Below, piece by piece: positions 24,960-34,414 of a DNA stretch of 64,000 nucleotides (positions are counted from its first letter, which is position 1; each line of letters begins with the position of its first letter). A program made the position numbers and the translations under genes. The DNA is from Vicinamibacteria bacterium. GTDB lineage: Bacteria; Acidobacteriota; Vicinamibacteria; Fen-336. Under the pieces are notes generated by a model. It saw only the letters and a program-made list of their open reading frames with translations, was not told the DNA's origin and searched no databases. The stretch lies in the NCBI GenBank assembly GCA_035570235.1, contig DATMML010000043.1, forward strand, positions 62,001-126,000. Reading direction: 5' to 3'.

Positions 24960-25796
24960 ATGAAGAACCGGCTCTTGAGTTCCTTGGTGGCCGTGGGGTT
25001 CGGCGTGCTTCTTTATGGCCCTTCCCCGGCACTGGCTCAGGCATACTTGGGCACTGCTCAGCCCTTTGCGGTCCTGGGCGGGACAACGGTGACCTGCCTC
25101 GGAGCTGGGACCGCCATTACCGGAAGCATAGGTGTCAGCCCCGGCGCCGCGCCCACTGGCTTCCCGGTTCCGTGCGCCGGTGTCCCGATCATACCGCCTG
25201 CCTCTGATCCGGCTCAGCTTGCTCTCACCACGGCGTACAATACTTTAGCCGCGCTCCCCTGTGCCTCCACCGTGGGTCCCAATCTCGCTGGCCTCACGCT
25301 CACGCAAGGCGTCTACTGTGTTAACGCTGCCGCTTCCAATCTCACTGGAACACTCACTCTGAACGGCCAGGGCAATCCCAACGCAGTCTGGGTCTTTCGG
25401 ATGTCGAGCACGCTCATCACATCGTCCGGCTCGACCGTTGCCTTGATCAATGGCGCCAATGCTTGCGCCGTAGAGTGGCAGGTCAGCAGCTCCGCGACCA
25501 TCGGTTCCGGCACGACGTTCGTGGGAAACATCCTCGCCCTCACGAGCATCGCAATGGGTACCGGCGCAAACCTGACCGGTAGAACCTTGGCGCGAAATGG
25601 TGCGGTGACGCTGGATACCAACACCATCGGCTTCGGCGCCTGCGGCGCCGGAGGCGGCGTCGGCGGCGTGCCGCCTCCCTTCCCAGCGGGTGTCCCGACA
25701 CTGCCCCAGATCGGAGCATGGGCTCTCCTGGTGGTTCTTTTGGGTAGCGGTGCCTACCTACTCCGCCGGCGCACCCCCACCGAGGCGAGCAGATAG
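24960..25796 (+). CDS. Ice-binding-like (DUF3494) secreted protein with IPTL-type sorting signal
   Basis: A 278-residue protein: signal peptide (LLSSLVAVGFGVLLYGPSPALAQ), then a DUF3494 beta-solenoid (residues about 30-225). Recognisable blocks are FAVLGGTTVTC, GSIGVSPG, TQGVYCVNAA, TLNGQGNPNAVWVFRMSSTL, GSGTTFVGNILALTSI and TGRTLARNGAVTLD. The C-terminus has VPTLPQIGAWALLVVLLGSG and then RRR, a membrane-spanning sorting tail of the IPTL-CTERM class recognised by exosortase. DUF3494 proteins include antifreeze proteins, but many non-polar bacteria carry them as adhesins. The 3' end overlaps the convergent methyltransferase by 43 bp. It is preceded by sigma-54 promoter P3. Confidence 0.9.
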   Translation: MKNRLLSSLVAVGFGVLLYGPSPALAQAYLGTAQPFAVLGGTTVTCLGAGTAITGSIGVSPGAAPTGFPVPCAGVPIIPPASDPAQLALTTAYNTLAALPCASTVGPNLAGLTLTQGVYCVNAAASNLTGTLTLNGQGNPNAVWVFRMSSTLITSSGSTVALINGANACAVEWQVSSSATIGSGTTFVGNILALTSIAMGTGANLTGRTLARNGAVTLDTNTIGFGACGAGGGVGGVPPPFPAGVPTLPQIGAWALLVVLLGSGAYLLRRRTPTEASR

Positions 25797-26548
25797 CCGT
25801 GCCGCCGCACGGCCCGAACATGCCGATCGAGCCACACGAAGGGCTTGAGGAGGGCGGCGGTCAGGGGAGCGAGGCGCGGGCAGTAGGAGTGTAGGGCCAG
25901 GTCAGCCATCCGCAGCCAGCCCGGCACGAACAGGATCGCGGTCTCGGCGGCGACCTCGAAGCCGGCCGCCTCCAGCATCTGCCGGAGAGCGCGGCGCGAG
26001 AAGGACCGCTCGTACCCGTAGCCGTAGAGACCGAGCGCCTGCAGTACGGCGGCGAGGAGGGGCCGGAGGAAGGGATCCCACCGGTTTGGCACGCCCACCA
26101 CCGCGCGGCCGCCGGGCCGGAGCACGCGGTGGATCTCGCGCAGCGCCGTCTCGGGGTCACGGAAGTGCTCGATGGTGCCCATGGAGTAGACGGCATCGAA
26201 GCTGCCGTCGCGGAAGGGCAGGCGCCGCACATCGGCCACCAGGCCCCGGAGTCCCGAGTCAGAGAACGCCGCCTGGGCCTGGCGGACGATCGGCTCCGAG
26301 ATGTCGACCCCGAAGACCGCCGCCCCCTGCCCGTGCACCCATTGCAGGATGCGCGTGTTCTTGACCTCGTCCCACAGGTCGGTCTTGAGCACCGCGCACC
26401 GGCCAAGGTCGGGGACATGCTCGGAGAGCAGTCTCTTCTCGTTCTCGAAGTAGTAGACGGTGGACGCCGCGCCACCGAGGTCGGGAAAGTCCTCCCCCAC
26501 CTCCTGCCAGAAGCGGCGGTAGGCAGCGCTGAGGCTAGCGGGGACCAT
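25754..26548 (-). CDS. SAM-dependent methyltransferase associated with exosortase
   Basis: A 264-residue class I methyltransferase. The ATG at 26548 overlaps the exosortase stop by 14 bp, indicating translational coupling. A motif I-like segment is GAAVFGVDISEPIVRQAQ, and later blocks are LPFRDGSFDAVYSMGTIEHF and RVLRPGGRAVVGVPNRWDPF. The usual DxGxGxG glycine loop is replaced by DLWDEVKNTRILQWVHGQG, a form common in proteins that act on surface polysaccharide or lipid precursors. A longer in-frame start at 26623 lies inside the exosortase gene. A role in modifying exported or sorted products is inferred from the neighbour only. Confidence 0.72.
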   Translation of the reverse strand: MVPASLSAAYRRFWQEVGEDFPDLGGAASTVYYFENEKRLLSEHVPDLGRCAVLKTDLWDEVKNTRILQWVHGQGAAVFGVDISEPIVRQAQAAFSDSGLRGLVADVRRLPFRDGSFDAVYSMGTIEHFRDPETALREIHRVLRPGGRAVVGVPNRWDPFLRPLLAAVLQALGLYGYGYERSFSRRALRQMLEAAGFEVAAETAILFVPGWLRMADLALHSYCPRLAPLTAALLKPFVWLDRHVRAVRRHGYLLASVGVRRRSR

Positions 26549-27965
26549 CCACCGCCGGCCGCAGGGGAAGAAGCGTCCCCGCCGGGGGCTGCCCGGCGCG
26601 CCACAGCACGATCGCGAGGGCAACCGGCACCGCCACCGCCCACGCCCGCAGGAAGAGCGCGTGAGCCACCAGGCCCGTATGGGCGGCCAGCTCTCCGAGA
26701 ACCGCGAGCAGGACGACCTGGGAGGCGAGCAGCAGACCGAAGGCCGACAGGAAGCGTCGCCAGCCCGGGAAGGCCGTCATTCCGATAGCCAGGAGCAGCC
26801 CCGCCTGGTAGCCGGGTAGCAGGGCGAGCGCCCCCTGGGCGTCTCCCGGTGCGGTCAGCTCCGTCAGTGCTTGCGGGGCCAGGGAGGCAACCACCCCCGC
26901 AGCGGCGAACACGGCCGTCGTGAGGGCATGTCCAAGAACGGCGGTTAGGATCGCCGCCGCGCCAAGAGCCGCCCCGGCGCGCCGGGCGGCCCGCGCCCAC
27001 CTCCCGGGTGCCGGAGGCTCCCGCCCGAGGGCGAGCAGCACCACGCCGACGAGGGCCAGCACAAGCTGATGGAAGCCGTGGACGAGGAAGAGAGGCGAGG
27101 CGGCGAGGGCGGGGGGCAGGGCCAAGACGAGTACGCGGGCGATGGCGAGAAGGCCGAACAGCGGCAGCGCGGCGGCAAGGGCGACGACGCGCCGTGGCCA
27201 CGACAGGCGCACGGCGAGGACGCCCGCGATATAGAGAGGGATGAGGGCGGTCGCGATACATTCGGGTGTCACGACGAAAGTTCCGCGGCTCGTGGCCAGC
27301 GCGTTGCCGGAAGCCGTGGCCGCCACCCCCGCTCCCGTAAGCAAGAAAGCGGCGGAGCTCACGATCCAAGCGCCGGCCTCGAGCAGGGCGCGACTGCTCG
27401 AGATCCAGGGGGCGCAGAGGGCGAAGGCAACCAGGAGCACCGCCGCCCGGGGCGCGAAGCGACGGACGATCAGGGAAAGCGCATCACCCTCTCGAAAAGC
27501 GCCCTCGGCCCGCCCGCGCGCTTCGAGGGTCCCCCGCATCCAGGCAAAGACGTAGCCCGAGATGGCGAGGATGAGGATCGTGGGCCAGACCTGGAGATGA
27601 AGGGCCTGGAAGAGGGTCGGCGAGGCGGAGGCGCGGCCGAGTGTCGCGATGCGCAAGGTGTTCAGGGCCAGGATGAGGGCGATGCCGCCCGTGGCCCCGG
27701 CCAGACGGGCACGCCAGGGGACCGGGCAGGCGAGGATGGCCGCGAGGCACAGCGCAAGTGCGTCCGTCCCGCTGCACTCGAGGGTGACGGCGACCGGTGC
27801 CGTAGGGTGGCCGGCGTAGTAGTCCGCGGCCTGCTCCTGGAGCCGCGTCAGGGGGAGTACGAGCCGCTCCTCCGCCCACGGGCTGCGCAGCAGAGCGAAC
27901 AGCCCGAGGCTCCAGGCGAGCGCGCTCAGCAGGAATAGGGTCGCCCGAGGCGGCTCCGTCCGCAC
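26535..27965 (-). CDS. Tandem double-domain exosortase
   Basis: A 476-residue polytopic protein. Two exosortase/archaeosortase domains follow each other. Domain 1: TLECSGTDALALC with Cys64, LNTLRIATLG with Arg105 and ALHLQVWP with His123. Domain 2: VVTPECIATALIPLY with Cys235, LAIARVLVLALP with Arg276 and LVHGFHQLVL with His295/298. Single exosortases are usually about 170-300 residues with one Cys-Arg-His triad, so this looks like a fused duplication with both triads kept. GTG 27965 is proposed because earlier starts would run into the divergent gene. Its expected job is to cleave C-terminal sorting tails such as the one on the neighbouring DUF3494 protein. Domain 2 may alternatively serve a different substrate. 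Confidence 0.8.
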   Translation of the reverse strand: MRTEPPRATLFLLSALAWSLGLFALLRSPWAEERLVLPLTRLQEQAADYYAGHPTAPVAVTLECSGTDALALCLAAILACPVPWRARLAGATGGIALILALNTLRIATLGRASASPTLFQALHLQVWPTILILAISGYVFAWMRGTLEARGRAEGAFREGDALSLIVRRFAPRAAVLLVAFALCAPWISSSRALLEAGAWIVSSAAFLLTGAGVAATASGNALATSRGTFVVTPECIATALIPLYIAGVLAVRLSWPRRVVALAAALPLFGLLAIARVLVLALPPALAASPLFLVHGFHQLVLALVGVVLLALGREPPAPGRWARAARRAGAALGAAAILTAVLGHALTTAVFAAAGVVASLAPQALTELTAPGDAQGALALLPGYQAGLLLAIGMTAFPGWRRFLSAFGLLLASQVVLLAVLGELAAHTGLVAHALFLRAWAVAVPVALAIVLWRAGQPPAGTLLPLRPAVDGPR

Positions 27966-28071: not shown

Positions 28072-30132
28072 ATGTCGGGAGAGCCACGGGAGAAGACCCA
28101 AGAGCTGTCGGGGGCCAGGGGGGCCACCCTCGCCTTTGCGGTGGCACTAGCCGCGACGCTGGTCATGGCCGCGCCGGTAGCAATCGCGCCTTCCGAGCGC
28201 CTTTTCGGGAGCAGCCAGACCTTCGGGCGAGAGGACCCGAACCGGGATCCTTTCATCGTGATGGAACAGTTCCGGACTGGCCAAGTCCCCAGGCCCTACC
28301 TGCAGCCGCTCACCGACCTCGCGGGCCGCGTCCTAGCCGGCCCGTTGGGCCCGGTTGCGGCCTACAACCTCCTAGTCCTCTCCTCGTTTCCCCTCGCGGC
28401 CGCCGCCGCCTACCTGCTGGCGCGTTACGTCCTCGGCTCTCATCTGGGAGCCATGGTGGCAGGTCTGGCCTATGCGTTCCTCCCCTTCCACGTGGCCCAC
28501 GCTACTGGCCACCCGCACGTGGCTCAAACGCAGTGGCTGCCGCTCTACTTCCTCGCCTTATGGCAGTGCTTCGACCGCCCGGATCTCCGCCGTGCCTCGC
28601 TTCTGCTCGCCTCCGCCGCGGCGGTGACGCTCTCGAATTTCTACGGGGGGCTCATCGCCGCCGTCCTGAGCCCGGTGGCGCTCGTCTCCTACGGGGTCGT
28701 CTCGCCTCGCGCGCCGGGCGAGGGCCGGCGGCGAAGCCTGGCGCTCACGGGCCTGACGCTCACCGCGGCGGCGGCCGCCGCCCTCCTCCTCATTCACCTC
28801 GTGGCCCCCGCGGTCCTGCTTGATCCGGGAGCTTTCGCCTTCCCCCGCTCCGACCTCTTCCTCTACAGTGCGAAGTGGTGGAGCTATCTCGTCCCCGCGG
28901 TGGACCACCCGCTGGCCGGCTCCCGGGTGCGGGAGTTCTGGGCCGGGCGCGGCCTCGAGGACGCGCTTCTTGAGCAGCAGGTGGGGGTGGGCTGGTCACT
29001 CCTGGCCCTGGGGGCCGTGCCGCTATGGCTTTGGCTGCGCGCGGACCGGAACTCGCTTGCGGCCCGCAGCGCCCCCATCCTGGCGAGCATCGCCGTGGCC
29101 GCCCTCCTTTGCTCGCTCTCTCCCGAGCGGAGGATCGGGTTGTTCACGTTCGTACGCCCCTCCGCGTTGCTTTACGCGGTGGCACCGATGTTCCGGGCCT
29201 ATGCGCGGTTCGGCCTAGTAGTCGGCCTCATGACCGCGCTGCTGGCGGGAGGGGGCGCGGCCTGTCTGTGGCGTTGGCCCCGCTCCGCCGGCCGGTGGGC
29301 GGCCGCGCTCCTCCTGAGCCTGGCCGCCCTGGAGTACGCGCCCTTCCCGCCTTGGCGGTGGCGCGACGTGCTCCCCACCCGCGCCCACCGCTGGTTGGCG
29401 GGGCAGCCGGGCCCGCTGCGGGTGTTGGACTGCGTGTCCCCCTCCCGGGCCTCCGACCTCTTCGCCCTCAGTCTCTTCCCCCACGAGGTCTCGCTCCTCG
29501 GCGGGAGCTCCATCGCCCGAGCGGGTCGGAATGATTCCGTCGGTGCGACGAGCTTCGACGACTGTGGGGAGCCGGAGCTTGGACACAAGCTCGCGGCCCT
29601 GGGCTACACCCACGTCGTCGTCCGGCGGGACAGCGCGGCCGGAAGATGGATAGCGGGCAAGCCGGCGCCAGAAGGGCTCACACGCGGCCCGGAGTTCGAG
29701 GACAGCTGGGTTTGGGTGGTGGCGGCTCAGCAGCCGCGCGCATACGTAACCGGCCTGGTCGGCTTCTACCCTCGCGAATACCTGGGCGAGGTCACGTGGC
29801 GCTGGATGGGGCAGAGCGGGACGTTCAAGGTGGTCAATGCCGCGGAACACCCGGTATCGACCGCGCTGGAGCTGGAGCTTCTGGCGTTTCCTGGCGACCG
29901 CCGCGTGGAGTGGTTCCTCGAAGGGCGCCGGCTCCACGAGCTGGGTGTGGTGGCCGAGTGGCGGCGGTACGTCCTTCCTCTCGGCACTGTCGCCCCGGGG
30001 GAGACTACCCTCACCCTCGCGTGCCACGGGCCGGCTGTGGTCGCGAACGACGTCCGCGGCAACGGCGACCCCCGCGCCCTCTGCCTGGCTGTGGGAAGCT
30101 GGAGGTGGGAGACATCCGCCCCCGTCCGCTAG
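28072..30132 (+). CDS. GT-C-like polytopic membrane protein
   Basis: A 686-residue protein with about ten membrane helices in its first 400 residues and a soluble, beta-rich C-terminal region. An early loop has DPNRDPFIVMEQFRTGQ and then helix-loop blocks such as AYAFLPFHVAHATGHPHVAQ and QWLPLYFLALWQ. This resembles PMT/YfhO-like GT-C enzymes, which transfer sugars from polyprenyl-phosphate carriers. The acidic first loop (DPNRD) could carry the catalytic aspartate, but this is not certain. The ATG at 28072 was chosen because it starts just before helix 1. It is divergent from the exosortase gene. Confidence 0.68.
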   Translation: MSGEPREKTQELSGARGATLAFAVALAATLVMAAPVAIAPSERLFGSSQTFGREDPNRDPFIVMEQFRTGQVPRPYLQPLTDLAGRVLAGPLGPVAAYNLLVLSSFPLAAAAAYLLARYVLGSHLGAMVAGLAYAFLPFHVAHATGHPHVAQTQWLPLYFLALWQCFDRPDLRRASLLLASAAAVTLSNFYGGLIAAVLSPVALVSYGVVSPRAPGEGRRRSLALTGLTLTAAAAAALLLIHLVAPAVLLDPGAFAFPRSDLFLYSAKWWSYLVPAVDHPLAGSRVREFWAGRGLEDALLEQQVGVGWSLLALGAVPLWLWLRADRNSLAARSAPILASIAVAALLCSLSPERRIGLFTFVRPSALLYAVAPMFRAYARFGLVVGLMTALLAGGGAACLWRWPRSAGRWAAALLLSLAALEYAPFPPWRWRDVLPTRAHRWLAGQPGPLRVLDCVSPSRASDLFALSLFPHEVSLLGGSSIARAGRNDSVGATSFDDCGEPELGHKLAALGYTHVVVRRDSAAGRWIAGKPAPEGLTRGPEFEDSWVWVVAAQQPRAYVTGLVGFYPREYLGEVTWRWMGQSGTFKVVNAAEHPVSTALELELLAFPGDRRVEWFLEGRRLHELGVVAEWRRYVLPLGTVAPGETTLTLACHGPAVVANDVRGNGDPRALCLAVGSWRWETSAPVR

Positions 30133-30176: not shown

Positions 30177-30242
30177 CCTACAAGCCCCGGGGAACCCGGA
30201 CCACCGTCGACGCCGGCTAAGACTCACAGTCAGGGGGTCGGA

Positions 30243-31568
30243 ATGATCAAAGATGCGGCCCGCGCGGCGCGGGCCATTCTGGTGCTTCTGCTCCTGTTCG
30301 GGGTGACCACGCCATCCTCGGGTTACTCCGTGCTTACCCATGAGCAGATCGTCGATCTCCTCTGGAAGGACCAGATTCAGCCCCTCCTGCTGAAGCGATT
30401 CCCGAGCGCCACCGAAGAAGACCTGCGCAAGGCGCATGCGTATGCCTACGGCGGCTGCGTCGTTCAGGACATGGGGTACTATCCGTTCGGAAACGCGTTT
30501 TTCAGCGACCTCGTCCACTACGTGCGCAGCGGCGATTTTGTCGTGGCCCTCGTCCAGGAGTCTTCCGACGTCAACGAATATGCCTTCGCATTGGGAGCGC
30601 TTTCGCACTACTCCGCCGACAACACCGGCCACCCCACCATCAATCGCGTGGTCGCCCTGGTCTTTCCCAAGCTGCGGACCAGGTACGGAGACCAGGTCAC
30701 CTACGCGGACGATCCTAAGGCACACATCCAGACGGAGTTCGGCTTCGACATGGTTCAAGTGGCGAAGAACCGCTACACCTCCGATAGCTATCATGACTTC
30801 GTTGGTTTCGAGGTCTCCAAGCCCGTCCTCGAACGCGCATTTGAGAAGACCTACCAACTGAAGCTCGACGATGTCCTTGGCCACGTTGACCTGGCCATCG
30901 GGACTTTCCGCCGAGCGGTGAGCCAGGTGGTCCCAGAGATGACGCGGGTTGCGCTGCTCTCCCGCCACCTGGAGTTTGTGGACGACACACCCAATGCCAA
31001 CAAGAGGAAGTTCCTGTACTATCTTTCCCGCAACCAGTACGAAAAGGAATGGGGGACGACCTACCGCAAGCCGGGGATCAAGACACGAATCCTGGCGTTT
31101 TTCTTGCGATTGATTCCGAAGTTCGGGCCTTTCAAGGCACTCGCCTTTCAGATCCCCACCACGCAGACGGAGGACATGTACATCAAGAGTGTCGACAAGA
31201 CGGTAGAGAACTACGCGAGCTTGCTTAGCGAGGTCGGCAGCGAGAACCTTCACCTGCCGAACATCGACTGCGACACCGGCCGGGAGCCGCGGGCGGGCGA
31301 GTACGTTCTCAGCGACAAGAGCTATGCGCGCCTGCTCCACACCCTCTCCGAGCACGGATTCGACCAGCTCACGGCCGAGCTGCGCGCGAACATCCTGGCT
31401 TTCTACGCCACCCTGGATGCACCGAGCGCGACGAAGAAGGACCAGAAAGCCTGGCGCCGGACCCTGAGGGAGCTGGATGAGCTCAAGGTGGAGCCACCCC
31501 GAGCAGTACCCGCGCTGACGAGCGCATCGGGAGGGGCGGACTCAACGAATGCCAGCATTCGCCATTGA
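30243..31568 (+). CDS. Zinc-dependent phospholipase C-like secreted protein
   Basis: A 441-residue protein. A signal peptide (ILVLLLLFGVTTPSSGYS) supports ATG 30243, which has GGGGG upstream. The fold resembles the alpha-helical zinc PLC / S1-P1 nuclease group: THEQIVDLLW near the mature N-terminus, HAYAYGGCVVQDMGYYPFG, and ALGALSHYSADNTGHP, with the HxxxDNxGH pattern of zinc ligands. The late half (AKNRYTSDSYHDF, RKFLYYLSRNQYEKEW) is less diagnostic. It may hydrolyse phospholipids in the envelope or outside the cell. speD follows within 100 bp, so both are probably driven by sigma-54 promoter P4. Confidence 0.75.
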   Translation: MIKDAARAARAILVLLLLFGVTTPSSGYSVLTHEQIVDLLWKDQIQPLLLKRFPSATEEDLRKAHAYAYGGCVVQDMGYYPFGNAFFSDLVHYVRSGDFVVALVQESSDVNEYAFALGALSHYSADNTGHPTINRVVALVFPKLRTRYGDQVTYADDPKAHIQTEFGFDMVQVAKNRYTSDSYHDFVGFEVSKPVLERAFEKTYQLKLDDVLGHVDLAIGTFRRAVSQVVPEMTRVALLSRHLEFVDDTPNANKRKFLYYLSRNQYEKEWGTTYRKPGIKTRILAFFLRLIPKFGPFKALAFQIPTTQTEDMYIKSVDKTVENYASLLSEVGSENLHLPNIDCDTGREPRAGEYVLSDKSYARLLHTLSEHGFDQLTAELRANILAFYATLDAPSATKKDQKAWRRTLRELDELKVEPPRAVPALTSASGGADSTNASIRH

Positions 31569-31666
31569 AAGGGCATTCCCTCCGGGACCGGGACACCCGC
31601 CAAAATAGTCCTCCGCCCGCATCGGGGCTTGACGGCACCCCTCGCCTGCGCTTAACTGGCCCCACC

Positions 31667-32023
31667 TTGACGGATCCCCCGCTCGGTACGGAATGGCTCG
31701 TCGACGCGCACGGCTGTGAGGCCAACCGGCTGCGGTCCCAGGAGGCCCTCGCGGCCCTCTTCGACCGGATCGTCCAGGACCTCGGGCTCCGCACGGCAGG
31801 CGAACCGCTGTGGCACGTCTTCCCTGGACCGGGGGGCGTCACAGGGATGCTGCTCCTCAAGGAATCGCACCTCGCCTGCCATACGTTTCCCGAGCGCGGC
31901 TTCGCATCCTTCAACCTCTACTGCTGCCGTCCGCACGAGGAATGGCCGTGGCCGGAGCGGCTGGCCGAGTTCCTCGGAGCGCGACGCGTCGAGGTGCGAT
32001 CGTTTATGCGCGGAGGAGCCTGA
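31667..32023 (+). CDS. speD: S-adenosylmethionine decarboxylase (prokaryotic type)
   Basis: A 118-residue pyruvoyl-dependent enzyme that makes decarboxylated SAM for spermidine synthesis. The self-cleavage site is LLKESHLACHTFPE, where cleavage before Ser creates the pyruvoyl group; the Cys within HxxCHT is the second conserved active residue. FNLYCC and WLVDAHGC complete the core. TTG 31667 gives the usual family length; an upstream TTG at 31565 would add a non-homologous tail and overlap the previous stop. No spermidine synthase is adjacent in this window. Confidence 0.85.
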   Translation: MTDPPLGTEWLVDAHGCEANRLRSQEALAALFDRIVQDLGLRTAGEPLWHVFPGPGGVTGMLLLKESHLACHTFPERGFASFNLYCCRPHEEWPWPERLAEFLGARRVEVRSFMRGGA

Positions 32024-33469: not shown

Positions 33470-34414
33470 ATGAAGAGTAAATACTTGATTCTGTTGGCAA
33501 GCATGGGATTCGCCGCGTTTGTTTCGGGTCCGTCTCCGGCGTTGGCCGCCTCGCCAACTCTGGGTTCGGCGGCGAGCTTCGCGATCCTGGGTGCATCGAC
33601 GGTGACCTGTACCGTTGCCGGCGCCGTCACCGGAGACGTCGGCGTCAGTCCCGGTACCGCAATCACCGGCTTTAATCCTGATTGCACGCTTACGGGAACG
33701 CTGCACTTTGGTGATGCCGTCGCGCTTCAGGCCCACGTGGATGCCGGCCTCGCGTACCTTGCCCTCGCAGCACAGCCGTGCAGCAATCCCATACCCTTCG
33801 CCGGTGCTACGCAGCTGGCGGGAATGACCTTCAGTCCTGGCGTGTATTGCTTCGCGTCGTCCGCTTTCCTGAACGGAACACTCAACCTCACGGGCGCGGG
33901 CCCGTGGATTTTCCGGATGGGGAGCACGATCATAACCGGAGTGAGCGAGTCGGGCCCCGCGTCAGTTCTCGTCAATGGCCAGCCCACTTGCAACGGGGCG
34001 GACGTGTTTTGGCAGATCGGCAGCTCCGCGACCATCGGGGCAGGCACTCACTTCGTGGGAGACATTCTCGCCGTCGCTAGCATCGGCTTGGATCCCAACG
34101 CACACCTGGACGGTAGGGCCTTGGCGCTGAACGGTGCCGTGACGTTGAGTGGCAGCAATACCGTCTCCGTCTGCGGCTCCGGCGGCAGCATCCCCCCTCC
34201 GGGCCCCCCAGGGTGCAAGGTCAAGGTGATCTGTGATTGCAATGACCACCACGATGGTGACAACGATCGCCATGAGGGTGACAACGACCACCACGACAAA
34301 GATCGTAGTACCTGCCACGACCGTGACGATGACCACCACGACAAGGATAGCGACCACCACGACAAGGACGACGACCATCACGACAAGGACGGCGATCAGA
34401 AGAACGATCGCTGA
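33470..34414 (+). CDS. Ice-binding-like (DUF3494) protein with His/Asp-rich tail
   Basis: A 314-residue paralogue of the protein at 24960. Signal peptide ([20 protein letters not shown]), then the DUF3494 solenoid with [66 protein letters not shown] and [16 protein letters not shown]. Instead of a sorting tail it ends with [12 protein letters not shown], a small cysteine pair (ICDCN) and about 60 residues of His/Asp repeats ([15 protein letters not shown]). Such a tail should bind divalent metals or carry strong charge. No membrane anchor is seen, so it is probably released. Confidence 0.88.
34230..34411 (+). repeat. GAC/CAC-rich coding repeat (His-Asp tail)
   Basis: Short degenerate repeats of GACCACCACGACAAGGA-type units encode DHHDKD. 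About 60 codons, in frame to the stop. Likely prone to slippage; length may vary between strains. Confidence 0.8.

Follow-up and report, generated by a model that had tools for sequence, protein, structure and literature searches.

A tandem exosortase is encoded by one gene of a Vicinamibacteria bacterium (Acidobacteriota), whose draft genome comprises 138 contigs. Its two homologous domains each carry a complete Cys/Arg/His triad and are followed by a third conserved membrane module, and the fusion is conserved across the class. The gene lies in a 64,000-nucleotide stretch of one contig, the window of this study, beside the gene of a secreted DUF3494 (ice-binding-like) protein that ends in a sorting tail. 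As judged from the sequences, the two catalytic centers may serve one dedicated sorting pathway, with the first domain (D1) as the canonical tail transpeptidase and the second (D2) as a diverged second site, and we give this reading about an even chance of being right. Here, the evidence on the protein, its relatives and its neighbors is summarized and the competing explanations are weighed.

The Gene and Its Features

The gene occupies the interval given for it in a preliminary description of this DNA, with the GTG and TAG codons located (Table 1), and its start site is the one common to the relatives, V/M-[PLR]-T-D. The first triad, C64/R105/H123, was likewise at the positions claimed. For the second triad the set of Cys, Arg and His was right, but the numbers were one too low, the true residues being C236, R277 and H296; an additional histidine of D2, H299, is not conserved.

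Table 1. Features of the window and tailed proteins in relatives; the counts for triad residues refer to the 27 sequences compared.
Feature	Position	Strand	Remarks
Tandem exosortase gene	26535..27965	-	476 aa; GTG start at 27965, TAG stop at 26535-26537
Domain D1, XrtH-like exosortase domain, 4 TM, residues 1-150	27516..27965	-	TIGR04177 1.2e-13, TIGR04178 41.3 bits (residues 1-155 cut out)
Cys64 codon, D1 predicted nucleophile (E-C-S-G)	27774..27776	-	26/26
Arg105 codon, D1 (N-T-L-R)	27651..27653	-	27/27
His123 codon, D1 (LHLQVWP)	27597..27599	-	27/27
Domain D2, second, diverged exosortase domain, residues 160-318	27012..27488	-	TIGR04177 5.5e-6, TIGR04178 20.4 bits (residues 156-325 cut out); TIGR04178 23.1 bits genome-wide
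Cys236 codon, D2 predicted nucleophile (V-T-P-E-C)	27258..27260	-	27/27
Arg277 codon, D2	27135..27137	-	26/26
His296 codon, D2	27078..27080	-	27/27
Module D3, conserved 4-TM, without catalytic Cys, residues 326-460	26586..26990	-	invariant D375, Q377, Q387, R440, P447
Secreted DUF3494 (ice-binding-like) protein with C-terminal sorting tail	24960..25796	+	PF11999 4.9e-50
Sorting tail VPTLPQIGAWALLVVLLGSGAYLLRRR	25692..25772	+	only confident tail-profile match in the genome, E=2.9e-11
SAM-dependent methyltransferase, 264 aa	25754..26548	-	PF08241 1.4e-23
Large multi-pass membrane protein, divergently transcribed	28072..30132	+	PF10131 0.0026, short of the cut-off
Large secreted repeat proteins with [VT]PALPLxG-TM-RRR tails	L044:14457-16070, L049:9859-10998, L061:3-3284, L065:2045-3460, L076:4120-5769		

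Two Exosortase Domains in One Polypeptide

The central claim of the preliminary description, that a single polypeptide holds two exosortase domains, each with its full triad, is borne out. The NCBIfam models match each half separately. The best match of the whole protein was exosortase H (XrtH), with two matched stretches. When the whole genome was searched with TIGR04178 (cut-off 23 bits), exactly two places scored above the cut-off, both of them in this ORF, and D1 reached 42.4 bits. D2 is borderline alone because its score as a cut-out segment (19.6-20.4 bits) falls under the cut-off.

The two halves were also compared with each other. Profile-profile comparison of D1 with D2 (hhalign) gave E=1.5e-6, the reversed control giving P=0.24. 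In a joint alignment of D1, D2 and 14 standalone exosortases, C64 falls on C236, R105 on R277 and H123 on H296; the catalytic columns line up, and within D1, D2 and the standalone exosortases they show no variation wherever the residue is present. The spacing is equal in both halves (Cys-to-Trp 20, Trp-to-Arg 21). None of the six triad residues varies among the 27 sequences (Table 1), and all six are kept in two further members, L054 and L062.

The motifs reported for exosortases are C-x-G, N-x-x-R and H-x-x-x-G (PMC1569441). C-S-G, N-T-L-R and the His are present in D1, and the Gly after His is absent (H-x-x-x-W-P); in D1 and the standalone exosortases alike, C-x-G keeps its Gly and N-x-x-R its Asn in all or nearly all sequences. 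In D2 the Cys, Arg and His are invariant and in register. The motif of this half reads P-E-C-I ... A-I-A-R ... V-H, so that the Gly and the Asn are lost. The AlphaFold2 model places a beta-hairpin (residues 216-231) ahead of Cys236. In the tree inferred for the same sequence set, D1 forms one group (98/90) and D2 another (100/100), with a very long D2 branch of 2.56 changes per column. The monophyly of each domain is consistent with one ancient fusion that was inherited vertically.

The Third Module and the Predicted Topology

A third four-helix module, D3, was overlooked in the first reading. It contains no conserved Cys, and its membrane topology repeats that of D1 and D2. Residues 326-476, when cut out, gave no NCBIfam match, and no exosortase family matched D3. 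Comparison of D3 with D1 and D2 by hhalign gave P of about 0.09, a better value than those of the reversed controls (0.56-0.79) but not a significant one. D3 was thus rejected as a proven third exosortase, and the case for its homology to D1 and D2 is suggestive only.

The tandem exosortase is predicted to be an inner-membrane protein with 12 TM. In a positive-inside analysis of 26 sequences, with helix limits guided by the AlphaFold2 model, the density of Lys plus Arg per 100 residues was 11-31 in the cytoplasm-assigned loops and 0.3-7.4 in the periplasm-assigned loops. The pattern agrees with a series of three 4-TM units, each N-in/C-in, that leaves both triads outside, and the catalytic face of D1 is predicted to be periplasmic. 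The model has a mean pLDDT of 82.7 and a pTM of only 0.62, and its R277-H296 loop is poorly modelled. Searches of the PDB gave nothing by sequence and nothing below E=0.001 by fold.

Distribution of the Fusion

The search for the same fusion in other genomes, proposed in the preliminary description, revealed relatives in 31 of the 193 genomes of the class, belonging to 21 genera, some of these relatives being fragments at contig ends. A scan of named genomes with the single protein found no relatives, whereas a profile scan did, and the named records concerned were mostly Vicinamibacteria/Acidobacteriota MAGs. Among 396 genomes sampled across the phylum, full-length matches were confined to the class, and the genomes outside it showed only D1-like single-domain exosortases.

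Some records have peculiarities of their own. L054, labelled Candidatus Limnocylindrales, contains the full Vicinamibacteria module and is probably a mis-binned contig. In L028 (1507-2837, minus strand) and L075, D1 lies in a different frame from D2-D3; the cause may be an error in sequencing, a frameshift or a natural division of the gene.

The Sorting Tail and the Likely Substrate

The DUF3494 protein encoded next to the methyltransferase and exosortase genes is likely the dedicated exosortase substrate. It ends in VPTLPQ-TM-RRR, that is, in a tail composed of motif, TM and basic residues. A custom profile of 13 tails had one confident match in the genome (46.8 bits), which was this protein; its tail is itself among the 13, so what counts is that no other tail matched with confidence. 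The next match (E=0.05) is antisense to another gene. The weak matches elsewhere (C54, C36 and C97) were rejected; named by eye, they are an antisense frame, a helix of an ABC permease and the N-terminus of an RmuC-like protein, respectively. A general search for tripartite tails over 1.75 Mb (about 30% of the genome) revealed no second Pro-motif tail. A second DUF3494 protein (33470-34414, plus strand) has a His/Asp/Lys-rich repeat (HHDKD...) at its C-terminus and no sorting tail; it is possibly metal-binding and freely secreted.

Sorting tails were also sought in the genomes with the fusion, as had been suggested, and in about a dozen relatives a DUF3494 protein with a VP[TAS]L-x-TM-R tail adjoins the exosortase. 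In another branch, tails of the [VT]PALPLxG-TM-RRR type are carried by unrelated secreted repeat proteins near the gene (Table 1), FN3-like by eye. Almost every tail near the gene in the relatives conforms to P-[ATS]-[LM]-x, and the presence of such tails on unrelated proteins in another branch indicates that the passengers change and the tail type persists.

Neighboring Genes

The ATG of the methyltransferase gene lies inside the exosortase gene, with an overlap of 14 nt (26535-26548) that is the same in L002; in L017 (1474-3627, plus strand) the exosortase and the methyltransferase form one ORF of 718 aa. Of the 27 genomes of the class in which the methyltransferase was found, 26 also contain the fusion (Fisher p=4e-26), and the large membrane protein co-occurs with the fusion in 15 of 18 genomes (p=2e-11); both p-values are optimistic, because related genomes are non-independent draws. 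The membrane protein gene is absent from about half of the fusion-bearing genomes, and its product is possibly a GT-C-like glycosyltransferase, as a weak family match hints. Downstream of it are genes for a zinc-dependent phospholipase C (30237-31568, plus strand; PF00882, 8.8e-24) and an S-adenosylmethionine decarboxylase (31592-32023, plus strand; PF02675, 7e-24).

Proposed Mechanism and Alternative Explanations

In the proposed pathway, the DUF3494 protein would be exported by Sec, after which its VPTLPQ-TM-RRR tail would hold it in the membrane. D1, to judge by its family, would cleave the tail and form an acyl-enzyme. The gene neighborhood suggests that the protein might then be transferred to an acceptor in the membrane or at the surface, which the methyltransferase and the glycosyltransferase-like membrane protein may build or modify. 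D2 would be a second working site on the transfer/acceptor side or in a further processing step, and we prefer this to a site for a second tail family. We infer catalysis at either site as well as the acceptor and the division of labor. Catalysis by D2 is favored because its Cys, Arg and His are fully retained under strong divergence, with the motif neighbors changed; the invariance of this triad may also reflect structure. The lost motif context of D2, together with the finding of only one tail class, suggests a different step and not a different substrate. That two working centers act in sequence on one substrate, within a three-fold repeat in which the third unit no longer has a nucleophile, is a tentative proposal in which we place limited confidence.

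A rather unlikely alternative is that D2 is no longer a catalyst and that D2 and D3 serve as a scaffold. As a pseudo-dimer within the protein they would shape the substrate groove or anchor partners, with the triad kept for packing. This alternative would account for the missing C-x-G and N-x-x-R context and the long branch of D2, and D3 exemplifies a Cys-less module of the same topology within the protein; yet all three catalytic residues stayed invariant as their motif neighbors changed, and in a family this diverse (35-54% identity to the window protein) an inactive domain would probably have lost one or more of them. The preliminary description had offered two roles for the fused pair. One, an obligate internal dimer, may be correct. 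The other, dual specificity, by which each of the two domains would have its own class of C-terminal tail to process, we regard as improbable: the genome has only this exosortase and only one confident tail, which does not support two tail specificities, the second DUF3494 paralogue ends His/Asp-rich, and almost all tails near the gene in relatives are alike. The strong difference between D1 and D2 around the Cys would suit dual specificity, and a second tail class may be missed by the tail profile and the family models, the general rule having covered about 30% of the genome.

That the fusion is an artefact, through chimeric assembly or chance motif matches, is scarcely conceivable, even though the window genome is a draft and one relative has its halves in different frames. 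The full-length fusion recurs in many genomes and contigs from independent assemblies, including a contig of 6.1 Mb, at 35-54% identity, which excludes an assembly artefact, as the preliminary description had required of a genuine fusion, and the D1-D2 homology and triad invariance argue against chance matches.

If two catalytic centers do serve one pathway, this would be the first exosortase with two working centers in one chain. What exosortases attach to their substrates is, to our knowledge, not settled. With a two-site enzyme and one recognizable substrate, cleavage and transfer might be separable by single-cysteine mutants, and the linked genes, including the methyltransferase, point at acceptor chemistry.

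Comparison With Known Systems

No exosortase with two active sites was described in the open-access papers searched, in agreement with the earlier statement that none was known, and no NCBIfam model matches such an enzyme; the novelty of the tandem exosortase rests on these two observations. Described exosortase fusions join EpsH with EpsI or CAAX-protease-like domains (PMC1569441). They resemble the present protein in adding another domain to an exosortase, but the partner there is not a second exosortase. EpsH (PF09721) itself matched the tandem protein with 6.6 bits (cut-off 25.7), and nothing in the genome scored above that cut-off.

XrtH (TIGR04177) is the family that best matches the protein, both whole and by halves, at scores below its cut-off of 86 bits (whole protein 60.8, D1 51.4, best in the class 67.7). 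Its model is one domain of 158 positions, whereas two domains are present here. The VPTLPQ-TM-RRR tail resembles IPTL-CTERM (TIGR04174), although the DUF3494 tail was not among the matches of that model and did not reach its cut-off of 20.5 bits. The single-domain exosortases of other Acidobacteriota (L127-L140) match D1, with C-[ND]-G, N-x-x-R and H conserved, and are mostly about 170-250 aa long, without D2 or D3. Like the exosortase/archaeosortase superfamily in general (TIGR04178; EpsH/XrtA, ArtA), the tandem exosortase is multi-pass, with Cys/Arg/His predicted on the outer face and a partner with a tripartite tail (PMC1569441, PMC4343526); unlike that superfamily, it combines two complete domains and a third module in one chain.
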